From positions 1 through 31,817 of the IMG/VR virus record IMGVR_UViG_3300027844_000891: DNA of 31,817 nt. One strand, written 5' to 3'. Under the pieces are notes generated by a model that saw nothing but the letters and a program-made list of their open reading frames with translations, was not told the origin of the DNA and made no database searches. Positions within the stretch are counted from its first letter, which is position 1. The number at the start of each line of letters is the position of its first letter. The stretch comes from a virus. Made by a program: the position numbers and the translations under genes. Below are positions 1 through 11,214 of the stretch, one piece after another.

Positions 1-822
1 GCCAAGTCCTTCGAGGACTGCTTAAGGCATCACAATCTAGTTGAAATCGCCCCTATTTTTAGAGAGATTCTAGACAACCCAGAGATTATAGGTTTAGACA
101 AGGATTTTTTGAAAAGCAAATCTGAGCCGCACAGGGAATCTCTGATACTAGGAGAGTACCTACTTAAATTATCAGTGCATCTAGGAACACTTTCTTCATA
201 CTATCTAAAGCACGGTCAGTGGTCTTATGAAACGCCTGACTGGTTTGATCAAAGACATCATACGCTAGATTTGAAGACACAAAACAAAAACTCTTGGCTG
301 GAATCAATAGCTTCAGTACTTAGAGTTCTACCGGAAAACGGGAAATTGTTGGATTACTGCGCTGGAGATGCATATTTAGACTATGAGTATTTCAGACACA
401 TGGCCAGTGAGATAACTTGTGTTGATATAGACGATTCTAATGAGTATAAAAATTATCTTATAAAGAAAAATTCCAGTGTACCAAATATTGAATATATCTA
501 TGAAAATATTCTTACTCATGATGCTAAAAATGACTACTATGATGTAGTTCTAATGAGAGGATCAATAGAACACTTCTCTAAGGAAAATCAGAAATTGCTG
601 TTTGAAAAAATCAAACGGTCCTTAAAAGAAAATGGGTGGTTTTGTGGAGACACTCCCGCTTCTTTAAGCGATGAAAGCAATATGCACTCTGCTCATGAAT
701 ACGAATGGAGGAATGAGCATGAAGCCAAAGAATTATTATCGGAACACTTCGGTGAGGTTCATACTTATTCCGTATATTGTAATATAGACCCCAGAACTAC
801 AATTTTCTGGAGATGCAGATAG
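1..822 (+). CDS. SAM-dependent methyltransferase, 5' end outside the window
   Basis: The reading frame is open from base 1, so the gene starts upstream; the TTG at 109 is only the first possible start inside the window. The middle of the visible protein carries a class I Rossmann methyltransferase signature: the SAM-binding stretch LLDYCAGDAYLDYEYF, an acidic strand end (CVDIDD) for the ribose, and a later DVVLMRGSIEHF strand followed by a helix and KENGWF turn, as in the Methyltransf_11/25 type. No DPPY or PC motif of DNA base methyltransferases is visible, so a small-molecule, sugar or protein target is likelier. It sits upstream of a nuclease-like gene and glycosyl/HAD genes. The substrate is unknown. 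Confidence 0.8.
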   Translation, partial: AKSFEDCLRHHNLVEIAPIFREILDNPEIIGLDKDFLKSKSEPHRESLILGEYLLKLSVHLGTLSSYYLKHGQWSYETPDWFDQRHHTLDLKTQNKNSWLESIASVLRVLPENGKLLDYCAGDAYLDYEYFRHMASEITCVDIDDSNEYKNYLIKKNSSVPNIEYIYENILTHDAKNDYYDVVLMRGSIEHFSKENQKLLFEKIKRSLKENGWFCGDTPASLSDESNMHSAHEYEWRNEHEAKELLSEHFGEVHTYSVYCNIDPRTTIFWRCR

Positions 823-840
823 ACTCAAGTCACGGCGATC

Positions 841-1374
841 TTGTTCCGAGTCCTGCCGAGAGTACTTACAGTGAGACAACTCCTACTATGGGAAGAAGAA
901 GAATCCGAGGTATATGAATTTTTAGTATTAGTTGAAAAAATACAAGATTTTTCTGGTAAAATATCAACCGCTGTTAGTGATGCGGTTTATGAATCAAAGT
1001 TTGGAGTAGACAGTATAGAGGACTTAGACTCACTTGGAAAAACTATAATAGGTGCGAGAGTAGAACATCACATAAGAAATCAACTCTCAGCCCTTCAGGG
1101 GACAACTTGTGATTGTTTATTGAATGGTCTAGAATTTGACATAAAAACTACTGTTCGAAAAAATTGGCAAATTTCCCCAAAGCAGGTGAGAAATAAATCT
1201 ACCCTTCTTCTTCTAAAAATAAACGATATAAATTTTTCTTGTGGTGTAATAAAAGTAAAAGAACAGTTTCTGAACGAAGGAAGAAACAGGGACCAAAAAA
1301 GGACACTAAGCGAATATGGTAGAAATAACATAGACTGGCTTATAGGGGGCTTTAAATATGAGAGACACAAGTAA
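841..1374 (+). CDS. NaeI-like restriction endonuclease catalytic domain
   Basis: The 177-aa product has E75, D91, D100 and K102, with the D-x8-D-x-K core embedded in TCDCLLNGLEFDIKTT. The spacings (16, 9 and 2 residues) equal those I recall for the NaeI active site (E70, D86, D95, K97). Downstream, GVIKVKEQFL...NRDQKRTLSEYGR resembles the NaeI stretch after its active site (GLVKVIPQFL...NRDLKRRLTPEGR). NaeI is about 317 aa with a second CAP-like DNA-binding domain; that domain is absent here, so this would be a stand-alone nuclease domain. There is no in-frame ATG. TTG 841 is the farthest start after the upstream stop; GTG 871, with GAGAG 8 nt before it, is an alternative. It overlaps the HAD gene by 17 nt. 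Activity is inferred, not shown. Confidence 0.7.
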   Translation: MFRVLPRVLTVRQLLLWEEEESEVYEFLVLVEKIQDFSGKISTAVSDAVYESKFGVDSIEDLDSLGKTIIGARVEHHIRNQLSALQGTTCDCLLNGLEFDIKTTVRKNWQISPKQVRNKSTLLLLKINDINFSCGVIKVKEQFLNEGRNRDQKRTLSEYGRNNIDWLIGGFKYERHK

Positions 1375-2679: not shown

Positions 2680-4188
2680 ATGAAGCCGTCTACCTCAGTC
2701 CAAGGTCCAGTAGCCGAAGGAAAAAACTTTATAAACGGCAACTTCGTTGAAGTTTCTGGAGGTAATCTTTTTAAAAGTGAAGATCCATCCACTGGCGAAA
2801 TTTTAGGATTCTTTCCAGAGTCGAGTCAAAAGGATGTAGACTCTGTCTATCACTTTGCAAGAGACTCTTTTTATGGGTGGCGACAATACAGTAGAGTTCA
2901 GAGGGCAGAATATTTTCTTAAGTTAGCTAATATAATAGAAAAAAGAAAAGAAGAGATAGCCAGAGTAATAACTTTGGAAACAGGCAAGGTTTATAATGAA
3001 TCCATTGCAGAGGTAAATGAAGCCTTGCACATGGCTCAATACGCTTTCAGTACCGGAAGAATACCTTATGGGGAAGTACTCGCATCTGAGCTACCTGAAA
3101 AAGACGCTTACATGCTTCGTAAACCAAAAGGTGTGGTCGCAATTATTGCTCCTTTTAATTTTCCTTTTGCTATTGGTGGCTTCTGGTGTGCCGCGCCCGC
3201 TCTGGTAGAAGGTAATACTGTAATACTTAAACCAAGCGAAGATGTTCCTTGGGTTGGTCAGTTAACTGCTGAACTTTATCAGGAGGCTGGGTTCCCACCG
3301 GGAGTGTTTAATGTTATTCAAGGGGGAGCAGAAACAGGAGATCTTTTAATACACAAAGATGTTGATCACGTATGTTTCACGGGAAGTGCTGAAGTAGGAA
3401 TGCATGTTCGTAAAGTCTGTGCCGAAAGTTGGCATAAGACCTGCTCGTGTGAAATGGGAAGCAAGTCTGCGGTAATTATTCATGAAGATGCAAATTATGA
3501 TATGGCAATGGCCGCATGTTTGGCCAGCGCTTACAAACTATCTGGCCAACGTTGCGTGTCTGCTGGTAGGTTGATTGTTCACAGATCACTGCACCACAAA
3601 TTTTCCGAGGAATTTGCCAGCAGAAGCTCACAGTTAAAAACAGGAGACCCCTTTGAAAGCACCACCTTTTATGGCCCATTAGTCAATAGACAAGGCTTTG
3701 ATAAAGTGGTAAAATACAACAGTATGGTATTCAACGATTCAGAAGCAAGCGTTCTTCTGGCTGGCGTGGAAGTAGTTAAAGATGGACTTTACATAACACC
3801 AACAGTTTACAGGACGGAATGGAGAGATGCACCATATCTTAAACAAGAAGTATTTGGCCCCCATGTTTCAATCATTCCTTACGATACAGTGTCTGATGCT
3901 ATTGATATTTACAACGACACTGATTACGGGCTTTCTCTTGGGATAGTAACGGAGAACTTCAAAGTTGCCAGAAGAATTCGTAATGAATGTGATTTTGGTC
4001 TTGGTTACTGGAACGGTGGTAGCATTGCGGCTGAAAGTCATCTGGGATTCGGAGGAGTGAAGAAGTCTGGTAACGGACAGCCAAGTGCGGCTCGCACCTT
4101 TAGGTCCGTTACTCACGAGGTCGCGTGGACTGTTAATCACGGTGACAGTCTTAACTTTCCACAAGGTATGAACACGGGTAGTGACTAG
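2680..4188 (+). CDS. NAD(P)-dependent aldehyde dehydrogenase, possibly for aminoadipate semialdehyde
   Basis: A full-length 502-aa aldehyde dehydrogenase. Visible landmarks are the oxyanion-hole region IIAPFNFPFAIG, the cofactor-binding VILKPSEDVP, the FTGSAEVG turn, the general base Glu in CEMGSKSAVI, the nucleophile Cys in SGQRCVSAGR, and the conserved EVFGPHVSII and GFGGVKKSGNG blocks. All catalytic residues are present, so the enzyme should be active. The family oxidises aldehydes to acids. The aminotransferase and lysine-dehydrogenase-like genes downstream point to L-2-aminoadipate 6-semialdehyde (piperideine-6-carboxylate), giving 2-aminoadipate and NADH; that substrate is inferred from context. 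The SET gene begins at its stop codon (TAGTG), indicating coupled translation. It is unusual cargo for a phage. Confidence 0.93.
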   Translation: MKPSTSVQGPVAEGKNFINGNFVEVSGGNLFKSEDPSTGEILGFFPESSQKDVDSVYHFARDSFYGWRQYSRVQRAEYFLKLANIIEKRKEEIARVITLETGKVYNESIAEVNEALHMAQYAFSTGRIPYGEVLASELPEKDAYMLRKPKGVVAIIAPFNFPFAIGGFWCAAPALVEGNTVILKPSEDVPWVGQLTAELYQEAGFPPGVFNVIQGGAETGDLLIHKDVDHVCFTGSAEVGMHVRKVCAESWHKTCSCEMGSKSAVIIHEDANYDMAMAACLASAYKLSGQRCVSAGRLIVHRSLHHKFSEEFASRSSQLKTGDPFESTTFYGPLVNRQGFDKVVKYNSMVFNDSEASVLLAGVEVVKDGLYITPTVYRTEWRDAPYLKQEVFGPHVSIIPYDTVSDAIDIYNDTDYGLSLGIVTENFKVARRIRNECDFGLGYWNGGSIAAESHLGFGGVKKSGNGQPSAARTFRSVTHEVAWTVNHGDSLNFPQGMNTGSD

Positions 4189-4553
4189 TGGCACAGGTTG
4201 AAGTAAAGACCTTTATAAAAAGCACGATGAACGACATGATTTGTCTTCTTCCTAGCCATATTAGTGGTAATGGACTATTTGCTAATAAAGATATTGAAGC
4301 GAACAGTTTTCTTCATGTTACACACGTTCACCGTGACCTAGTAGGAAAAGGTAGTTGTGAAAATACGTGGATTAATCTTACTCCAAACCACCTATACAAC
4401 CACTCTAAGAAAAATGAAAATTGCACGTTAATCACAGACGGCTTAACAAAAGGTCTGATGGCAACTAAAAATATAGCCGCATGGAAAGAGATTTTAGTTG
4501 ATTACACAGAAGACAAGGAATTAGAACAACCACAGTCAGGATGGACTGAATAA
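4188..4553 (+). CDS. SET-domain protein (putative protein methyltransferase)
   Basis: A short 121-aa protein showing the SET-domain skeleton: N-terminal ISGNGLFANKDIEANSFL (the SxxxGxGLFA strand), then HLYNHSKKNENCTL, matching the NHSxxPNC pseudoknot motif, then LMATKNIAAWKEILVDYTED, matching the GEEI-x-x-DY end. SET proteins usually transfer methyl groups from SAM to lysine side chains. No post-SET cysteines are present. The GTG start overlaps the upstream stop by one base (TAGTG), and the stop overlaps the next ATG (TAATG), so the gene is locked into the metabolic operon. An alternative ATG start lies at 4229. Target unknown; it could methylate a phage or host protein, or a free amino acid. 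Confidence 0.75.
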   Translation: MAQVEVKTFIKSTMNDMICLLPSHISGNGLFANKDIEANSFLHVTHVHRDLVGKGSCENTWINLTPNHLYNHSKKNENCTLITDGLTKGLMATKNIAAWKEILVDYTEDKELEQPQSGWTE

Positions 4554-5353
4554 TGAGTGAATTTTTAATGTGTAATCCTGCATACTTTGATGTGAAGTAT
4601 GAAATAAACGACTGGATGAAAAAATTAAATAAACCAGACCTACCATTAGCCAAACGCCAGTGGTCTTATCTGCATGATAGACTGATCCAGAGTGGGGCGA
4701 CTCTTAAATATGCTACACCACACCCAGATTTTCCTGATATGGTTTTTACAGCAAACGCCGGGTTGGTAAAAGGGAAAAGGGTTGTATTATCCAACTTTAA
4801 ATATGAAGAAAGAAGAGGGGAAAAACAATACTTCAAAAAATGGTTTTTAGAAAACGGGTATCAGGTTATAGAAATACCAGAGGATATATTTTTTGAAGGT
4901 GCTGGAGACGCTCTATTTGTTGGTGGAGTGCTATTTATGGGATACGGATTTAGAACTAGTATAGAATCCCATAAAATTGTTGCACAAGCCCTTGGTGTAG
5001 ATTATGTATCATGTGAGTTGGTAGATCCAAGATTTTATCATTTGGACACCTGCTTCTTCCCATACGATAATGGACTGTTATATTATCTAAACGCTTTTTC
5101 CGTACCGTCACAAAGAGATATATTACTGAACCTTATATCTTTGAGTGTTTCGCGAGGCGGAATAACTGTTGTTCCAGCCTCTGATGAACAAGCATCTGAA
5201 TTTATATGCAACAGTGTTGTCAGCAATAGCAGCATAATAACGCCATCTAAAAGGTTTAATAAAACCTTTTTGGGATACAATATCTATAGCTGTGAAATGT
5301 CTGAATTCATTAAATCTGGAGGCGCTGTAAAATGCCTCACGTTAGAACTATAG
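4553..5353 (+). CDS. Amidinotransferase/dimethylargininase-fold hydrolase
   Basis: The 266-aa protein matches the guanidino-modifying superfamily (arginine deiminase, dimethylargininase, amidinotransferase). Key elements are PDMVFTANAG near 61-70, the acidic FEGAGDAL (E115, D119), the general-base His in FYHLDTCFFP (H163), and the C-terminal nucleophile Cys in GGAVKCLTL (C261). All these residues are intact, so hydrolysis of an arginine-like substrate (arginine, methylarginine or citrulline) through a thiouronium intermediate is likely. The closest-looking families are dimethylargininase and citrulline hydrolases. The ATG overlaps the SET stop, and the next gene's SD lies within the last codons. 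The substrate cannot be fixed from sequence, and it does not belong to the standard lysine pathway. Confidence 0.82.
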   Translation: MSEFLMCNPAYFDVKYEINDWMKKLNKPDLPLAKRQWSYLHDRLIQSGATLKYATPHPDFPDMVFTANAGLVKGKRVVLSNFKYEERRGEKQYFKKWFLENGYQVIEIPEDIFFEGAGDALFVGGVLFMGYGFRTSIESHKIVAQALGVDYVSCELVDPRFYHLDTCFFPYDNGLLYYLNAFSVPSQRDILLNLISLSVSRGGITVVPASDEQASEFICNSVVSNSSIITPSKRFNKTFLGYNIYSCEMSEFIKSGGAVKCLTLEL

Positions 5354-6540
5354 ATATCTTGAAAGAACATATACTTGTTGATGGGTTTCATATTGTAGTA
5401 GACCATCGGCAAAGTATTGGTAGTTGGATTGTAGACATAAACACTAAAAAAAAATATCTGGATTGCTATTCACAATTTGCCAGCCAACCATTAGGTTGGA
5501 AACACTCTTCTTTGATACAAGCTCAAAATGAGATGGGAAGTATCGGAAGAGTCAAAATGGCTAACAGTGATATGTATTCAGAGGAATATGCCCTTTTTGT
5601 AGAGAAATTTTCAGAGGTAACACCCGACTTCAAGCACTATTTTTTTATCGAAGGGGGTGCTTTAGGGGTAGAGAACTCTCTTAAGGCGGCTTTTGACTGG
5701 AAGGCTAAAAAGTTAGGATATACACATACTGTTGATATAAATAACCTAGACGTATTTCATCTAAAGAATGCCTTTCACGGTAGAACAGGGTATACACTAT
5801 CTCTTACCAATACCACCCCAGAAAAGACCTCGCTGTTTCCTAAGTTTAGATGGACTACCGTAGAGCCTGACTGGAAAGATATTGAACGTAGAATGCACCC
5901 AGAAGTTGCAGCAATAATAATCGAACCAATACAAGGGGAGGGTGGAGATAATCACTTTCCTCTAGAATTCTTTACAAACATAAGACGGATAGCAGACCAA
6001 AACGATTGTTTACTTATATTTGACGAAGTGCAGACTGGACTAGGGCTAACCGGAAAAATGTGGGCATACGAACATTTCGATGTTATCCCAGATATTATGT
6101 GCTTCGGAAAAAAAACACAGGTATGTGGATTCTGTTCGACTGGACGTATAGACGAAATAGAAGACAACGTTTTTACCACTAGCGGCAGAATTAATTCCAC
6201 TTGGGGTGGCAATATTGTTGACATGGTTAGATTCAGATACATAATAGACGCAATTCACAAGCATGAATTAGTTAAAAATGCTCACGATGTTGGGCGAGAT
6301 CTTTTGTGTGGGTTAAGAAAGATTACAAAGATTGAAAACATCCGAGGTAGAGGATTAATGATAGCATTCGATTTACCTTCCACCGAACTTCGTGATAGAA
6401 CGGTAGAAATTCTAGAAGATAACATGCTGATTTTAAAATGCGGGGAAAAATCAATCAGACTAAGACCTCCGTTGACATTTTCTACAGAGGACGCAGAGAT
6501 CGCGTGTGAGTATATAGAAAAGGCTGTTGACAAATTATGA
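5332..6540 (+). CDS. lat: L-lysine 6-aminotransferase-like class III PLP enzyme
   Basis: A 402-aa class III aminotransferase. Landmarks are FFIEGGALGVENSLKAAFDW (phosphate and substrate loop), FHGRTGYTLSLTN, IIIEPIQGEGGD, the PLP-ring Asp in LIFDEVQTG (D231), and the Schiff-base Lys in CFGKKTQVCG (K260). The combination of GKKTQVCG with RINSTWGGNIVDMVR is what I recall as characteristic of lysine 6-aminotransferases such as mycobacterial Lat, rather than ornithine or acetylornithine enzymes. The reaction would be lysine plus 2-oxoglutarate to aminoadipate semialdehyde plus glutamate. The ATG overlaps the upstream gene by 22 nt, with GGAGG 9 nt before it. Confidence in the fold is very high; confidence in lysine as substrate is moderate. 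Confidence 0.85.
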   Translation: MPHVRTIDILKEHILVDGFHIVVDHRQSIGSWIVDINTKKKYLDCYSQFASQPLGWKHSSLIQAQNEMGSIGRVKMANSDMYSEEYALFVEKFSEVTPDFKHYFFIEGGALGVENSLKAAFDWKAKKLGYTHTVDINNLDVFHLKNAFHGRTGYTLSLTNTTPEKTSLFPKFRWTTVEPDWKDIERRMHPEVAAIIIEPIQGEGGDNHFPLEFFTNIRRIADQNDCLLIFDEVQTGLGLTGKMWAYEHFDVIPDIMCFGKKTQVCGFCSTGRIDEIEDNVFTTSGRINSTWGGNIVDMVRFRYIIDAIHKHELVKNAHDVGRDLLCGLRKITKIENIRGRGLMIAFDLPSTELRDRTVEILEDNMLILKCGEKSIRLRPPLTFSTEDAEIACEYIEKAVDKL

Positions 6541-7388
6541 AGATACAAACTGTAGGAATCATAGGACAGGGGTTTGTTGGTGAAGCATTAGCAGAATGTT
6601 TTTCTCCACACTACAAGGTATACACTTACGATAAAGTACACGCAAATTTATCTACGCACAAAAGCGTGAGTTCTTTGTCTAGGGATTGCGATTTACTTTT
6701 TGTCTGTGTTCCAACGCCGATGAAAGAAGATGGGTCTTGTGATGTTTCAATAGTTAAAGAAGTCGTGCTACAATCCTGTAGTACAGGAAGAAGAAATATA
6801 GTAGTCATTAAGTCTACCGTACCTCCCAACACAACCAAAGCCCTACAGGAGTTATGTTTAGATTCACAAATAGTTTTCAACCCAGAGTTTCTGCTTGAAA
6901 GAAATGCAGAGGAAGATTTTAGAAATACCAGTAGGGTTATTTTGGGTGGCCCTAGACCTGCAACAACCAGACTAAAACAGTTCTACTCAAAAATATTCCC
7001 AAAAGCAGATATAATAAAAACAGATTCTACAATAGCGGAAATGGTAAAGTATCTAACAAACTCGTTTCTGGCTGTTAAAGTTTCTTTTGCTAATGAAATC
7101 TATAATATATGCAACAGCCTGAGTGTAGATTATGACAAGGTAATAGAATATTCTCTTTACGATGAAAGACTCGGACAGAGCCACTGGTCAGTCCCCGGAC
7201 CCGATGGACACTATGGTTTTGGTGGTAGTTGTTTTCCAAAGGATATAAACGCTCTGATGCATCTCGCACAGACCCTTTGCATCAAGGCCAATACTATAAA
7301 CGGAGCTTGGAACACGAACTTAATGGCAAGACCAGAAAAAGACTGGGAACTTCTTAAAGGAAGGGCCGTAGTAAGTAACGATAAATAA
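6537..7388 (+). CDS. Short UDP-glucose/GDP-mannose dehydrogenase-family protein
   Basis: The N-terminal NAD domain is intact (VGIIGQGFVGEA, then DLLFVCVPTPM and IVVIKSTVPPNTT), followed by FNPEFLLERNA, the central helix EMVKYLTNSFLAVKVSFANEI, and the catalytic-Cys loop GFGGSCFPKDINAL. These are diagnostic for nucleotide-sugar 6-dehydrogenases, which oxidise the sugar C6 alcohol twice to the acid. Normal members have 390-450 aa with a C-terminal NDP-binding domain; this 283-aa version ends soon after the central helix, so that domain is missing. The ATG overlaps the upstream stop (ATGA). It may work with a partner subunit, on a smaller substrate, or as a reduced form kept by phages. The stop looks genuine, since the next gene has its own good SD. 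Confidence 0.85.
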   Translation: MKIQTVGIIGQGFVGEALAECFSPHYKVYTYDKVHANLSTHKSVSSLSRDCDLLFVCVPTPMKEDGSCDVSIVKEVVLQSCSTGRRNIVVIKSTVPPNTTKALQELCLDSQIVFNPEFLLERNAEEDFRNTSRVILGGPRPATTRLKQFYSKIFPKADIIKTDSTIAEMVKYLTNSFLAVKVSFANEIYNICNSLSVDYDKVIEYSLYDERLGQSHWSVPGPDGHYGFGGSCFPKDINALMHLAQTLCIKANTINGAWNTNLMARPEKDWELLKGRAVVSNDK

Positions 7389-7405
7389 ATTACTAGAGGT
7401 AAAAT

Positions 7406-8479
7406 ATGAGATCTACAATATTTGGGGTTGGGCAGATGGGCAAATGCATAGCCGCTGCCATGGAAAAGCTAGGCCACGAACTTACCGTTGTAGATAGCTC
7501 TGCTGATTCGTTGTCTCAGTGTGGAGATATTCTGGGAAATTTTTCCAAGCATAACTTTGTACACTACCACGACACATCAAAAGAACACTACGAAGATTTC
7601 CTTGGTGATACTGATGTTGTAATTTCTGCATTACCCTATCATCAAACAGCTAGGCTTGCCAGATATTGTATAGGAAACGGTGTTAGATACTGCGACTTGG
7701 GAGGTAGCGATCAAACCAGTAACGCGATAAACAATTTAGCATCACAAAATGCAAGCAAGCCTGTCATGACTGATGTCGGGCTAGCCCCCGGCTGGATAAA
7801 TATATTAACAGAACATCTCTACAATGAATGCGTGGCAAAAAAAGGTGGAATGATACCTGAAACTGTAGAAATGATGGTTGGTGGCATACCTAAAGATCCA
7901 AGCAATCTATTAAAATACTTATGCACTTGGTCTGTTGATGGGTTGATAAATGAGTATAGAGGAAACTGCTTAGTATTAAAACATGGTCTTCAAGATGTAA
8001 CTTCTTCTTTAGGAGGTTTATCTTCCGTTACAGCCAGCGTAGGCGATCTTGAATGCTTTCATACTAGTGGCGGTGCTTCAAATACAATAGACTTAATGCA
8101 AAAAAGGGGTGTGCAAAACTGTCATTATAAAACAATAAGATGGCCCGGACACTGTGAGTTGGTAAAATTCCTAATTCATGACTGCGCACACGAAGATGAT
8201 GACTTAAAAAGGATTTTTTCCGAAGCGTGCAAGCCTACTAAAAATAAGAATGAAGACTTGGTAATCATGCGAGTATCCATGGACGAATGGGTTGAAGAAA
8301 AAATTATATCCTCAGACGCCTCTTGGTCAGCGATGCAAAAAGCGACAGCCTTTCCAACGGCGGCGATAGCTACTATTATTGGTAGTGGCGTTTTAGATTC
8401 CCACCGAATTGTTTCGTATGAAAAGATCCCCTATGAAAAATTTAGTGAAATTTTAGAAAAACTACTAGGGGGGACATAA
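7406..8479 (+). CDS. Lysine 6-dehydrogenase-like (saccharopine reductase family) oxidoreductase
   Basis: A 357-aa protein with an N-terminal Rossmann motif (FGVGQMGKCIAAAM), a VVISALPYHQT strand, YCDLGGSD, and the block MTDVGLAPGWINIL that typifies saccharopine reductases and lysine 6-dehydrogenases. Later MVGGIP, LECFHTSGGAS and YKTIRWPGHCELVKFL match the lysine 6-dehydrogenase pattern as I remember it (VGGIP, EAFHTSGG, YKTIRYRGH). Such enzymes oxidise the lysine 6-amino group to the semialdehyde with NAD(P), releasing ammonia, or reduce/oxidise saccharopine. This would converge with the upstream aminotransferase on the same semialdehyde. SD AGAGGT lies 6-7 nt before the ATG. The exact direction and substrate remain inferred. 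Confidence 0.8.
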   Translation: MRSTIFGVGQMGKCIAAAMEKLGHELTVVDSSADSLSQCGDILGNFSKHNFVHYHDTSKEHYEDFLGDTDVVISALPYHQTARLARYCIGNGVRYCDLGGSDQTSNAINNLASQNASKPVMTDVGLAPGWINILTEHLYNECVAKKGGMIPETVEMMVGGIPKDPSNLLKYLCTWSVDGLINEYRGNCLVLKHGLQDVTSSLGGLSSVTASVGDLECFHTSGGASNTIDLMQKRGVQNCHYKTIRWPGHCELVKFLIHDCAHEDDDLKRIFSEACKPTKNKNEDLVIMRVSMDEWVEEKIISSDASWSAMQKATAFPTAAIATIIGSGVLDSHRIVSYEKIPYEKFSEILEKLLGGT

Positions 8480-8482
8480 CCT

Positions 8483-8980
8483 ATGCCAACAAGTCAAGAA
8501 GAAGCCTTCAGTATTGTCGAGATACTGGATGAATATCTAGACGAGAGACAGGCTAGAGAACTTACTGCTCGATTGGAGCAGGAGATTGGGCAAAAGACTG
8601 ACAACGATTCCCTCAAAGTTAGTCTTGAAATGCTAAAAGCCCTGTATTCTAAAAAACCAAAGAGAATAGACTACTTAAAGAAAGGTCTTCTATACTCTAT
8701 CATTCTGTTTCACACGTCTATTATAGCTGTAAACATTGTTGCATTTTTTATACTACCTTTTCTATATCCGCTATGGGTTTGGGTTCCTATTAATAGTTTT
8801 ATCCTAACCGTTACATTTACCAGAGAGATATGTCCGCTAACAAGATTGGAAAACTACCTTAGAACTTCTCTTGGGGTTCAAAGGATAGGAGGATTTATAG
8901 GACACTACTTTGTTAAACCAATAAAGAACTTTCTAAAAAACCACGGGGGCGAAAAGGCATCGACTGGTAGTGCAGATTAA
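8483..8980 (+). CDS. DUF2784-like small integral membrane protein
   Basis: The 165-aa product has a charged helical N-terminus (about 1-60) and two hydrophobic segments at about residues 68-90 and 92-112. These are followed by REICPLTRLENYLR and GGFIGHYFVKPI. The CPLT-x-LEN-x-LR block and the FI-x-HY ending resemble DUF2784 membrane proteins, whose function is unknown. A GGGGGGA site precedes the ATG by about 9 nt. Its last 12 codons (8945-8980) lie inside the tmRNA gene, so the C-terminal GGEKASTG residues are dictated by the tmRNA 5' end. Cleavage of the transcript at the tmRNA 5' end would remove the stop codon from this mRNA. Confidence 0.65.
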   Translation: MPTSQEEAFSIVEILDEYLDERQARELTARLEQEIGQKTDNDSLKVSLEMLKALYSKKPKRIDYLKKGLLYSIILFHTSIIAVNIVAFFILPFLYPLWVWVPINSFILTVTFTREICPLTRLENYLRTSLGVQRIGGFIGHYFVKPIKNFLKNHGGEKASTGSAD

Positions 8981-9284
8981 TAATGGCATGGAGTGGTTGG
9001 TCAGTGGGCCACTATAAAAGCTGACCAAAAAGTAATTGCCGAAAAGCAATTCGCGTTAGCTGCCTAGAGTAGCTGGGGGTTGCACAAACCTTTTTATCCA
9101 ATTGTGCTGACTCCGATAATCGGATAGGGTTAGGCAGACCCGATATATTAGTGCCTGATGACCATAATGGTCTGATGATGGTCAATCCATCTAGTTTCGT
9201 CTGCTGTACGATAACAACAGACTAACCATGTAGAAATTATTATTCAAGCTAGACAGGACGCGGGTTCGATTCCCGCCGCCTCCA
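8945..9284 (+). ncRNA. ssrA: tmRNA (one-piece), tag AEKQFALAA
   Basis: The 5' end GGGGGCG (8945-8951) pairs with CGCCTCC (9277-9283) to form a 7-bp acceptor stem, followed by A at 9284. The T arm is GCGGG-TTCGATT-CCCGC (9260-9276). The 5' GGGGGCGAAAAGGCATCGAC is close to the tmRNA consensus. A tag ORF starts at GCC 9038 and encodes AEKQFALAA, stop TAG 9065-9067; the ALAA end matches bacterial degradation tags. TAAUU precedes the resume codon, keeping the A at -4. CCA is not encoded and must be added by the host. A run of seven T (9285-9291) follows and could terminate transcription. The total of 340 nt is a normal tmRNA length. The stem-loops between are presumed pseudoknots, not individually folded here. 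Confidence 0.95.
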
Positions 9285-10215: not shown

Positions 10216-11214
10216 ATGCAGAATATCATCCATAGGATATTAGGAGGTTCGGCCTACAACAAAGGAATTCTTGCCGCAGATGAAAGCTCTCCCACTATAA
10301 AAAAGCGATTTGATTCTGTGGGAGTGGATAGTACAGAAAGCACTAGGCATAGTTACAGACATAATCTTTTCTCCACCGACAAGTTGGAAGATTATATAGG
10401 CGGGGTTATACTTTTTGACGAGACAATAAGAAACGAAGATACCATCTCTCCCCTTAAAGAGAAGGATATCTGTCTTGGTATAAAAGTAGACAAGGGTGCT
10501 AAGCCCTACGATATGGACGGTCTTCTTACAGAGGGGCTTGATGGGCTATCAGATAGACTCAAAGAATATTCTAAGCTGGGGGCCGAGTTCGCTAAGTGGC
10601 GCGCTGTTCTTAATGTTCATGACACCGATGCTTGTATTATTGCTAATGCTTGGACTCTTGCTAGATATGCTAAAATATGTCAGGATGAGGGAATAGTCCC
10701 TATAGTTGAGCCGGAAGTATTAATGAGTGGTGGACACCGTATAATTGATTCTCTATGGTTTACAGAAAAAGTTCTACACCATGTGTTCGACGCCATGTAT
10801 TATGAAAACGTAGAATTGGAAGCTATGATACTTAAGCCGAACATGATTCTTAACGGTTATAAGAGCAATATACCTCTGCCACAATTCAGCGACTCCGCAA
10901 AAACTCTTCCTGACAGCGAAATAGTAGCCCACTACACCATACATGGCTTCAGAAGATATGTTCCTGCTGCCGTACCAATGATAGCCTTTCTTAGTGGCGG
11001 GCAGCCAGACGGGAAAGCTGTTGAAAATCTTAACCAGATGAACTTTTCATCTCTAACTCCTTGGCCTTTATCATTTTCATTCGGAAGAGAACTTCAAAAT
11101 AGCTCTCTAGCATTATGGGGTAACGGTGAACTGGGGTTGTCTAGAGAGGCTCTTCTAAGGAGGGCTGTACAGTGTAGCATGGCGGCTGAAGGAAATCTTA
11201 ACGAGTATGAATAA
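10216..11214 (+). CDS. Class I fructose-bisphosphate aldolase
   Basis: The 332-aa product matches the animal/plant-type class I aldolase: GILAADESSPTIKKRF at 17-32, GGVILFDETI, FAKWRAVL with K127 (the rabbit K146 equivalent), VPIVEPEVL with E165 and E167, and the Schiff-base Lys in MILKPNMIL (K207). Further on, PMIAFLSGGQ and the phosphate-binding C-terminal part with NLNQMN are present, with WPLSFSFGRELQ. All catalytic residues are there, so it should cleave or form fructose-1,6-bisphosphate without metal. As a phage gene it would push host central carbon flux between glycolysis and the pentose phosphate route. It overlaps the deaminase-like gene by 8 nt. Confidence 0.95.
   Translation: MQNIIHRILGGSAYNKGILAADESSPTIKKRFDSVGVDSTESTRHSYRHNLFSTDKLEDYIGGVILFDETIRNEDTISPLKEKDICLGIKVDKGAKPYDMDGLLTEGLDGLSDRLKEYSKLGAEFAKWRAVLNVHDTDACIIANAWTLARYAKICQDEGIVPIVEPEVLMSGGHRIIDSLWFTEKVLHHVFDAMYYENVELEAMILKPNMILNGYKSNIPLPQFSDSAKTLPDSEIVAHYTIHGFRRYVPAAVPMIAFLSGGQPDGKAVENLNQMNFSSLTPWPLSFSFGRELQNSSLALWGNGELGLSREALLRRAVQCSMAAEGNLNEYE

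Follow-up and report, generated by a model that had tools for sequence, protein, structure and literature searches.

A candidate phage operon for lysine side-chain oxidation with an arginine-dihydrolase-like gene coupled to its aminotransferase

Described systems and the layout of the phage locus

The reactions of L-lysine 6-transaminase (LAT), lysine 6-dehydrogenase (Lys6DH), piperideine-6-carboxylate (P6C) dehydrogenase (P6CDH) and arginine dihydrolase are established for the families of those names. The cellular route that combines LAT with P6CDH (Mycobacterium, Neomarinimicrobiota) resembles the phage locus described here in that it uses the same LAT family and has an aldehyde dehydrogenase (ALDH) nearby that oxidizes the product. 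In Neomarinimicrobiota (locus L050), the ALDH next to LAT belongs to the P6CDH family NF050084 (score 780, cutoff 730). The ALDHs of cellular LAT loci are mostly of this NF050084/ALDH7 type, whereas the phage ALDH is of another clade, and the cellular loci were seen without a linked Lys6DH-like gene or a coupled arginine dihydrolase. A Verrucomicrobiales contig (L045) has LAT, an ALDH7-type ALDH and DDAH near one another, but its DDAH gene is separate. No donor of the whole ALDH–DDAH–LAT operon was found among the cellular LAT loci.

A second relative is an operon on two Ruegeria plasmids, in which a saccharopine-dehydrogenase (SDH)-like enzyme of the same family as that of the phage directly precedes an ALDH. 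In the one case tested, the two genes are 3 nt apart and the ALDH is a true P6CDH (NF050084, 822.6 bits, cutoff 730). The Ruegeria operon differs from the phage locus in this P6CDH, in an SDH-like protein with only ~30% identity and in the cyanophycin genes alongside. Seven plasmids from alphaproteobacteria were inspected: an ALDH adjoins the SDH-like gene in these two and not in the other five. In Nitratireductor and Agrobacterium the SDH-like gene adjoins Lrp/AsnC regulators. A third relative is ArgZ/AgrE, an arginine dihydrolase–ornithine cyclodeaminase (OCD), the N-terminal dihydrolase domain of which resembles the DDAH-like ORF of the phage. An OCD-family gene also occurs in some phages, but there the genes are separate, and the DDAH-like ORF scores under its NCBIfam cutoff and is coupled to LAT.

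Phage genes have been filed under lysine degradation before. 'Lysine degradation' is named among auxiliary viral genes in a virome survey (PMC10732071), and a single KO, K14157 (aminoadipate-semialdehyde synthase), is given for gut phages (PMC13205691). As far as these sources were consulted, the entries are pathway-level or single-KO and do not amount to an operon of LAT, a Lys6DH-like enzyme and ALDH. A search of the open-licence literature found no phage lysine-oxidation operon, in agreement with the first-pass annotation of this DNA, which knew of no described phage lysine-catabolic module.

The locus lies in a 31,817-bp record of a marine bacterial virus, analysed as a whole and called the window below. 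The record carries viral genes for RIIA/RIIB, dCMP deaminase and ribonucleotide reductase, as well as a tmRNA. Six genes, all on the + strand, follow one another in the order ALDH–SET–DDAH/arginine-dihydrolase-like–LAT–UGD–SDH-like (Table 1). Going downstream, the junctions are overlaps of 1, 1, 22 and 4 nt and then a 17-nt gap. The module has a GC content of 39.8%, similar to the 41.7% of the remainder of the window. The first-pass annotation had described an aminotransferase, a dehydrogenase and an ALDH in one translationally coupled operon. All three are where it placed them, but they are not consecutive, as the SET, DDAH-like and UGD-like ORFs intervene. Half of the operon had thus been omitted, including the arginine-dihydrolase-like gene, a constant partner of LAT.

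Table 1. Genes of the module and the gene that follows it in the window
Gene	Coordinates	Strand	Properties
ALDH	2680..4188	+	502 aa; Pfam Aldedh 421.6 bits, E = 4e-126
SET-domain ORF	4188..4553	+	121 aa; Pfam SET 28.3 bits; 1-nt overlap with the ALDH stop
DDAH/arginine-dihydrolase-like	4553..5353	+	266 aa; NF052232 252.3 bits
LAT homologue, class-III aminotransferase	5332..6540	+	402 aa; Aminotran_3 E = 2e-80; TIGR03251 464.7 bits
Short UDP-glucose/GDP-mannose-dehydrogenase-like (UGD)	6537..7388	+	283 aa; Pfam UDPG_MGDP_dh_N and central domain
SDH-like, predicted Lys6DH-like	7406..8479	+	357 aa; Sacchrp_dh_C 70 bits, E = 3e-19
DUF2784 protein	8483..8980	+	Pfam PF10861; starts 3 nt past the SDH-like gene

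The Aldedh, Aminotran_3 and Sacchrp_dh_C matches in Table 1 greatly exceed what chance would give. The SET ORF is also found between ALDH and DDAH in three more contigs (L132–L134), where its homologues are 55% identical. In the UGD-like protein, Pfam did not detect a C-terminal UDP-binding domain.

Recurrence among viruses

Viral sequences were scanned twice, with a LAT search that returned 19 loci and an ALDH search from which 80 loci were kept; some loci are the same contig repeated between the scans, and each count below stays inside one scan. In the LAT search, nine close loci (63–80% identity) all carry ALDH and DDAH, and three of them carry the SDH-like gene; the ten other viral LAT contigs, one of them 340 kb long, contain no ALDH. 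In the ALDH search, LAT and/or the SDH-like gene is present in 63 of the 80 loci. The SDH-like gene occurs in 51, always on the same strand, downstream and within 6 kb. LAT occurs in 16, each time directly preceded by DDAH, and the ALDH–DDAH–LAT order is kept in 16 other viral loci. A further arrangement, in which the Lys6DH-like gene is present and DDAH and LAT are both absent, is found in 47 ALDH loci. Another 16 have no LAT, DDAH or SDH-like gene nearby, but seven of these end within 4.1 kb downstream of ALDH, and three are on contigs with LAT or SDH elsewhere. In huge phages, ALDH and LAT are found far apart (LR756511, 595 kb; G044, 381 kb; G050, 511 kb, which also carries SDH), so the genes are linked without synteny. 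No DDAH match was found in LR756511. The set is therefore present in many viral contigs, and the recurrence in related phages on which the first-pass annotation had made its reading depend is borne out. Host-type metabolic genes in a viral genome that recur in related phages constitute an auxiliary metabolic module, which is a known kind of module; the pathway content would be new.

A small VOC protein is encoded in 53 of the 80 ALDH loci, mostly immediately upstream; a fold search with a modest model of it gave weak epimerase/HPPD-like matches only. Other neighbours are an HAD-type phosphatase (36), a UDP-sugar-dehydrogenase-like protein (24), DUF2784 (11) and glycosyltransferases. The phosphatase, the UDP-sugar-dehydrogenase-like protein and the glycosyltransferases, together with the presence of LAT without ALDH in other phages, would fit a biosynthetic use of the module, in which the semialdehyde or aminoadipate is the precursor of a modified glycan, a DNA base or an osmolyte (e.g. 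pipecolate). We regard this as improbable: a P6C reductase, an amino-acid ligase or a DNA-modification partner is not consistently linked among the ALDH-locus neighbours, and ALDH, which would consume the precursor P6C, is the constant member of the loci searched.

The aminotransferase and the gene coupled to it

The window aminotransferase matches TIGR03251 (L-lysine 6-transaminase) far better than any other family. The second-best family scores 204.2 bits, under half of the TIGR03251 score, and ornithine aminotransferase models reach about one third of it. The lysine aminotransferase call made earlier is upheld as to the family, but the 464.7 bits do not reach the equivalog cutoff of 520.8. 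In a PDB search, the only matches of comparable strength are M. tuberculosis (Mtb) LAT entries (2cin, E = 8e-103). When 89 class-III aminotransferases, 16 of them other than LAT, were placed in a tree, the LATs split from the others with an SH-aLRT of 100, and the window protein is inside the LAT clade. All 24 viral LATs form a single clade within LAT (SH-aLRT 99). The phylogeny that would have told against a lysine enzyme, a placement with ornithine or acetylornithine aminotransferases, was thus not obtained.

The active site points the same way. The 16 active-site positions of Mtb LAT listed in PMC9780415 were mapped by HMMER alignment to 2cin, and 15 of them are identical in the window protein, with R170, E243, Q274, K300, N328, T330 and R422 all retained. 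The sole differing position is Val63, which is Phe here and in 37 of 49 cellular LATs. Asn328 is Asn in 33 of 34 viral LATs (rows that contain repeats of the same contig) and in 48 of 49 cellular LATs; not one of 31 further class-III aminotransferases has it. The LATs of the module are without an internal segment of ~25–35 residues that is present in other LATs. Taken together, the family match, tree and residues strongly suggest that the enzyme catalyses the LAT reaction, the epsilon-transamination of lysine.

The DDAH-like ORF scores best of all families with the arginine dihydrolase family NF052232, below the cutoff of 450 bits. Its best PDB matches are Sll1336/Alr4995 (ArgZ/AgrE; E about 1e-61), with which it shares identical FTANAGL (Asn) and FYHLDTCF (His) motifs; the C-terminal Cys motif of ArgZ/AgrE is also kept. 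The enzyme is probably an arginine dihydrolase, converting arginine to ornithine, two NH3 and CO2. Its gene overlaps LAT by an identical 22 nt in all 16 loci of the ALDH scan that bear LAT. Upstream of the LAT start, within the DDAH gene, lies TCTGGAGGCGCTGTAAA, so that a ribosome-binding-like GGAGG sits in DDAH codons. A further 59 viral DDAH loci have the DDAH-like gene but neither ALDH nor LAT.

The strict coupling of LAT to an arginine-dihydrolase-like gene widens the module beyond lysine, and a rival route from arginine to glutamate has to be weighed. The DDAH-like enzyme would make ornithine, the LAT-like enzyme would convert it to glutamate semialdehyde and ALDH would oxidize the latter to glutamate, so that lysine would not be the main substrate. 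Besides the invariant overlap and the match to ArgZ/AgrE, an OCD-family gene close to the module in two loci (L006 and L009) is consistent with such a route. It is at odds with the LAT clade membership and the LAT-specific Asn, with the low scores of the ornithine aminotransferase models, with the 595-kb phage that has LAT and ALDH and no DDAH match, and with the 47 ALDH loci in which a Lys6DH-like gene occurs in the absence of both DDAH and LAT. We consider it unlikely, since LAT-specific features are kept and the ALDH clade pairs with Lys6DH-like genes in those 47 loci. The strict LAT–DDAH coupling is something that a lysine route does not need, and it speaks against pure lysine catabolism.

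The dehydrogenases and the proposed pathway

The top PDB sequence match of the SDH-like protein is 3abi, an L-lysine 6-dehydrogenase (PMC10413350). A four-phage profile scores 113 bits against 3abi, 51 against AASS, 39 against saccharopine reductase and 22 against 4ina, a structure argued to be a carboxyspermidine dehydrogenase (PMC10413350). The AlphaFold2 model is of high predicted quality (pLDDT 92, pTM 0.91), and Foldseek again ranks 3abi first (E = 2.6e-22), ahead of AASS (2e-16) and carboxyspermidine dehydrogenase (1e-14). At 357 aa (3abi, 365; 1e5l, 450; 2axq, 467), the protein has the size of a Lys6DH (about 360 aa) and is shorter than saccharopine reductases (~450 aa). PHROGs contains no family for it. 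In line with the first proposal, Lys6DH of P. horikoshii is the closest relative of the dehydrogenase both by sequence and by predicted fold, and we assign the Lys6DH reaction to it with moderate confidence as a prediction from sequence.

Carboxyspermidine dehydrogenase and homospermidine synthase share the fold and family of the SDH-like protein (PMC10413350), and the best PDB matches of the phage ALDH, for which many ALDH classes tie, are betaine/trimethylaminobutyraldehyde dehydrogenases. The SDH-like/ALDH pair might then act on another amine or semialdehyde, for example of the polyamine type as in carboxyspermidine dehydrogenases, with LAT recruited secondarily. Such a role is very unlikely, given the scores of carboxyspermidine dehydrogenases relative to Lys6DH (22 versus 113 bits; Foldseek 1e-14 versus 3e-22) and the frequent ALDH-locus neighbours, among which no carboxyspermidine decarboxylase was seen as read from sequence. 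In view of the much better Lys6DH scores by profile and Foldseek, carboxyspermidine/homospermidine chemistry was not kept as the favoured reading of the SDH-like protein.

The phage ALDH, the least secure step of the proposed pathway, is a clear ALDH that retains its catalytic motifs, SGQRC with the Cys and CEMGSK with the Glu. The first-pass annotation had pointed to the ALDH7/P6CDH family, but the protein is not a member (NF050084, 274.9 bits, cutoff 730). In a quick tree, where several of the other rows sit on long branches, the phage ALDHs group by themselves (SH-aLRT 100). Their sister group is haloarchaeal (100), and they lie outside the P6CDH clade. By score (275 versus 730) and by clade, the phage enzyme is not a known P6CDH. 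The PHROGs match is a family annotated as of unknown function, and the annotated plasmid neighbourhood of one haloarchaeal ALDH suggests no clear pathway. Of the cellular ALDHs near LAT that were sampled, 18 of 24 are in the P6CDH clade and four in a second, GucD-like clade, the members of which are 35–37% identical to the phage enzyme. ALDHs next to LAT are thus drawn from more than one subfamily, which makes it plausible that the phage ALDH is an AASA/P6C dehydrogenase, where AASA is 2-aminoadipate-6-semialdehyde. By its genomic context, the enzyme may act on AASA/P6C or on another semialdehyde. The oxidation of AASA to 2-aminoadipate that had been proposed for it remains plausible from context, but since the enzyme is outside the P6CDH family and clade, aminoadipate as the product rests on that context.

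In the proposed pathway, LAT would convert lysine and 2-oxoglutarate to AASA and glutamate, and the Lys6DH-like enzyme would convert lysine and NAD(P)+ to AASA, NH3 and NAD(P)H. AASA would cyclize to P6C, with which it is in equilibrium, and the phage-clade ALDH would oxidize AASA/P6C to 2-aminoadipate with formation of NAD(P)H. The arginine-dihydrolase-like reaction would run as a parallel branch. The net effect would be that, during infection, basic amino acids of the host are converted to glutamate, ammonia and reducing power; the context suggests that the physiological purpose may be nitrogen and energy recycling.

The cluster is probably an auxiliary metabolic operon with which the phage takes the epsilon-amino group off lysine by LAT and/or Lys6DH, followed by ALDH. 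As an interpretation, lysine oxidation came through the three checks that could have overturned it, namely the placement of the aminotransferase, the nearest relatives of the dehydrogenase and the recurrence, but the ALDH turned out not to be a P6CDH and the arginine gene had been overlooked. On its side are the LAT clade and active site, the closeness to Lys6DH, the recurrence, the huge phages and the P6CDH neighbours of LAT and of the SDH-like gene in cells. Against it are a LAT that is shortened and under its cutoff, an ALDH outside the P6CDH clade and the ten LAT contigs without ALDH.

On a broader proposal we are evenly divided, namely that many marine phages share a new pathway of lysine side-chain oxidation. 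In it, LAT and Lys6DH-like enzymes would be interchangeable or additive, a phage-only ALDH clade would replace P6CDH and an arginine dihydrolase would, in a single lineage, be translationally coupled to LAT, the yield being glutamate, ammonia, reducing power and 2-aminoadipate. If this is true, the imprecise 'lysine degradation' annotations of virome surveys would gain a concrete basis, and a new ALDH clade would be defined, with a testable substrate. Ocean phages would then go beyond nucleotide salvage and the boosting of photosynthesis to the catabolism of lysine and arginine, two nitrogen-rich residues that would feed glutamate and ammonia into the production of progeny.

Two shortened proteins of the module

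Compared with the M. tuberculosis structure 2cin, the lysine 6-aminotransferase homologue (LAT) of the window (5332–6540) lacks about 25–35 residues, a deletion common to the LATs of phages with the module. It falls around M. tuberculosis residues 201–225 and is not shared by several of the other viral LATs. The UDP-glucose/GDP-mannose-dehydrogenase-like protein is only 283 residues long, with no detectable C-terminal UDP-binding domain. Its relatives keep this short form, and its substrate may therefore be something other than a nucleotide sugar.

Other genes of the window

The tmRNA gene overlaps the end of the DUF2784 ORF. The putative aldolase, possibly another metabolic gene, has a 60% identical copy in L010, another viral locus with the module.

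Coordinates of the features
Feature	Locus	Position	Remark
Methyltransferase-domain ORF	window	109–822	just before the NaeI-domain ORF
NaeI restriction endonuclease-domain ORF	window	841–1374	Pfam, 57 bits
UDP-glucose/GDP-mannose-dehydrogenase-like protein	window	6537–7388	
tmRNA gene	window	8945–9284	tag AEKQFALAA
Putative class I fructose-bisphosphate aldolase	window	10216–11214	likeness judged by eye
Ornithine-cyclodeaminase/mu-crystallin family gene	L006	4082–5029	
Ornithine-cyclodeaminase/mu-crystallin family gene	L009	3614–4567	
VOC-fold protein (Glyoxalase_4)	L010	7215–7715	

Gene neighbours at other loci

In two further viral loci (L006 and L009), the ornithine-cyclodeaminase/mu-crystallin family gene lies 3–4 kb upstream of the module; together with the arginine dihydrolase, it could form a split ArgZ-like route from arginine to proline. 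In two Ruegeria plasmids (L354, L391), cyanophycinase and cyanophycin synthetase genes adjoin the cellular pair of Lys6DH-like and aldehyde dehydrogenases.

A small VOC-fold protein, absent from the window, is encoded near the aldehyde dehydrogenase in 53 of the 80 viral loci, usually directly upstream. His5, His89 and Glu142 are conserved in it, and its C-terminus is reminiscent of 4-hydroxyphenylpyruvate dioxygenase. These features hint at a metal-dependent enzyme, which possibly performs a further step on the product.
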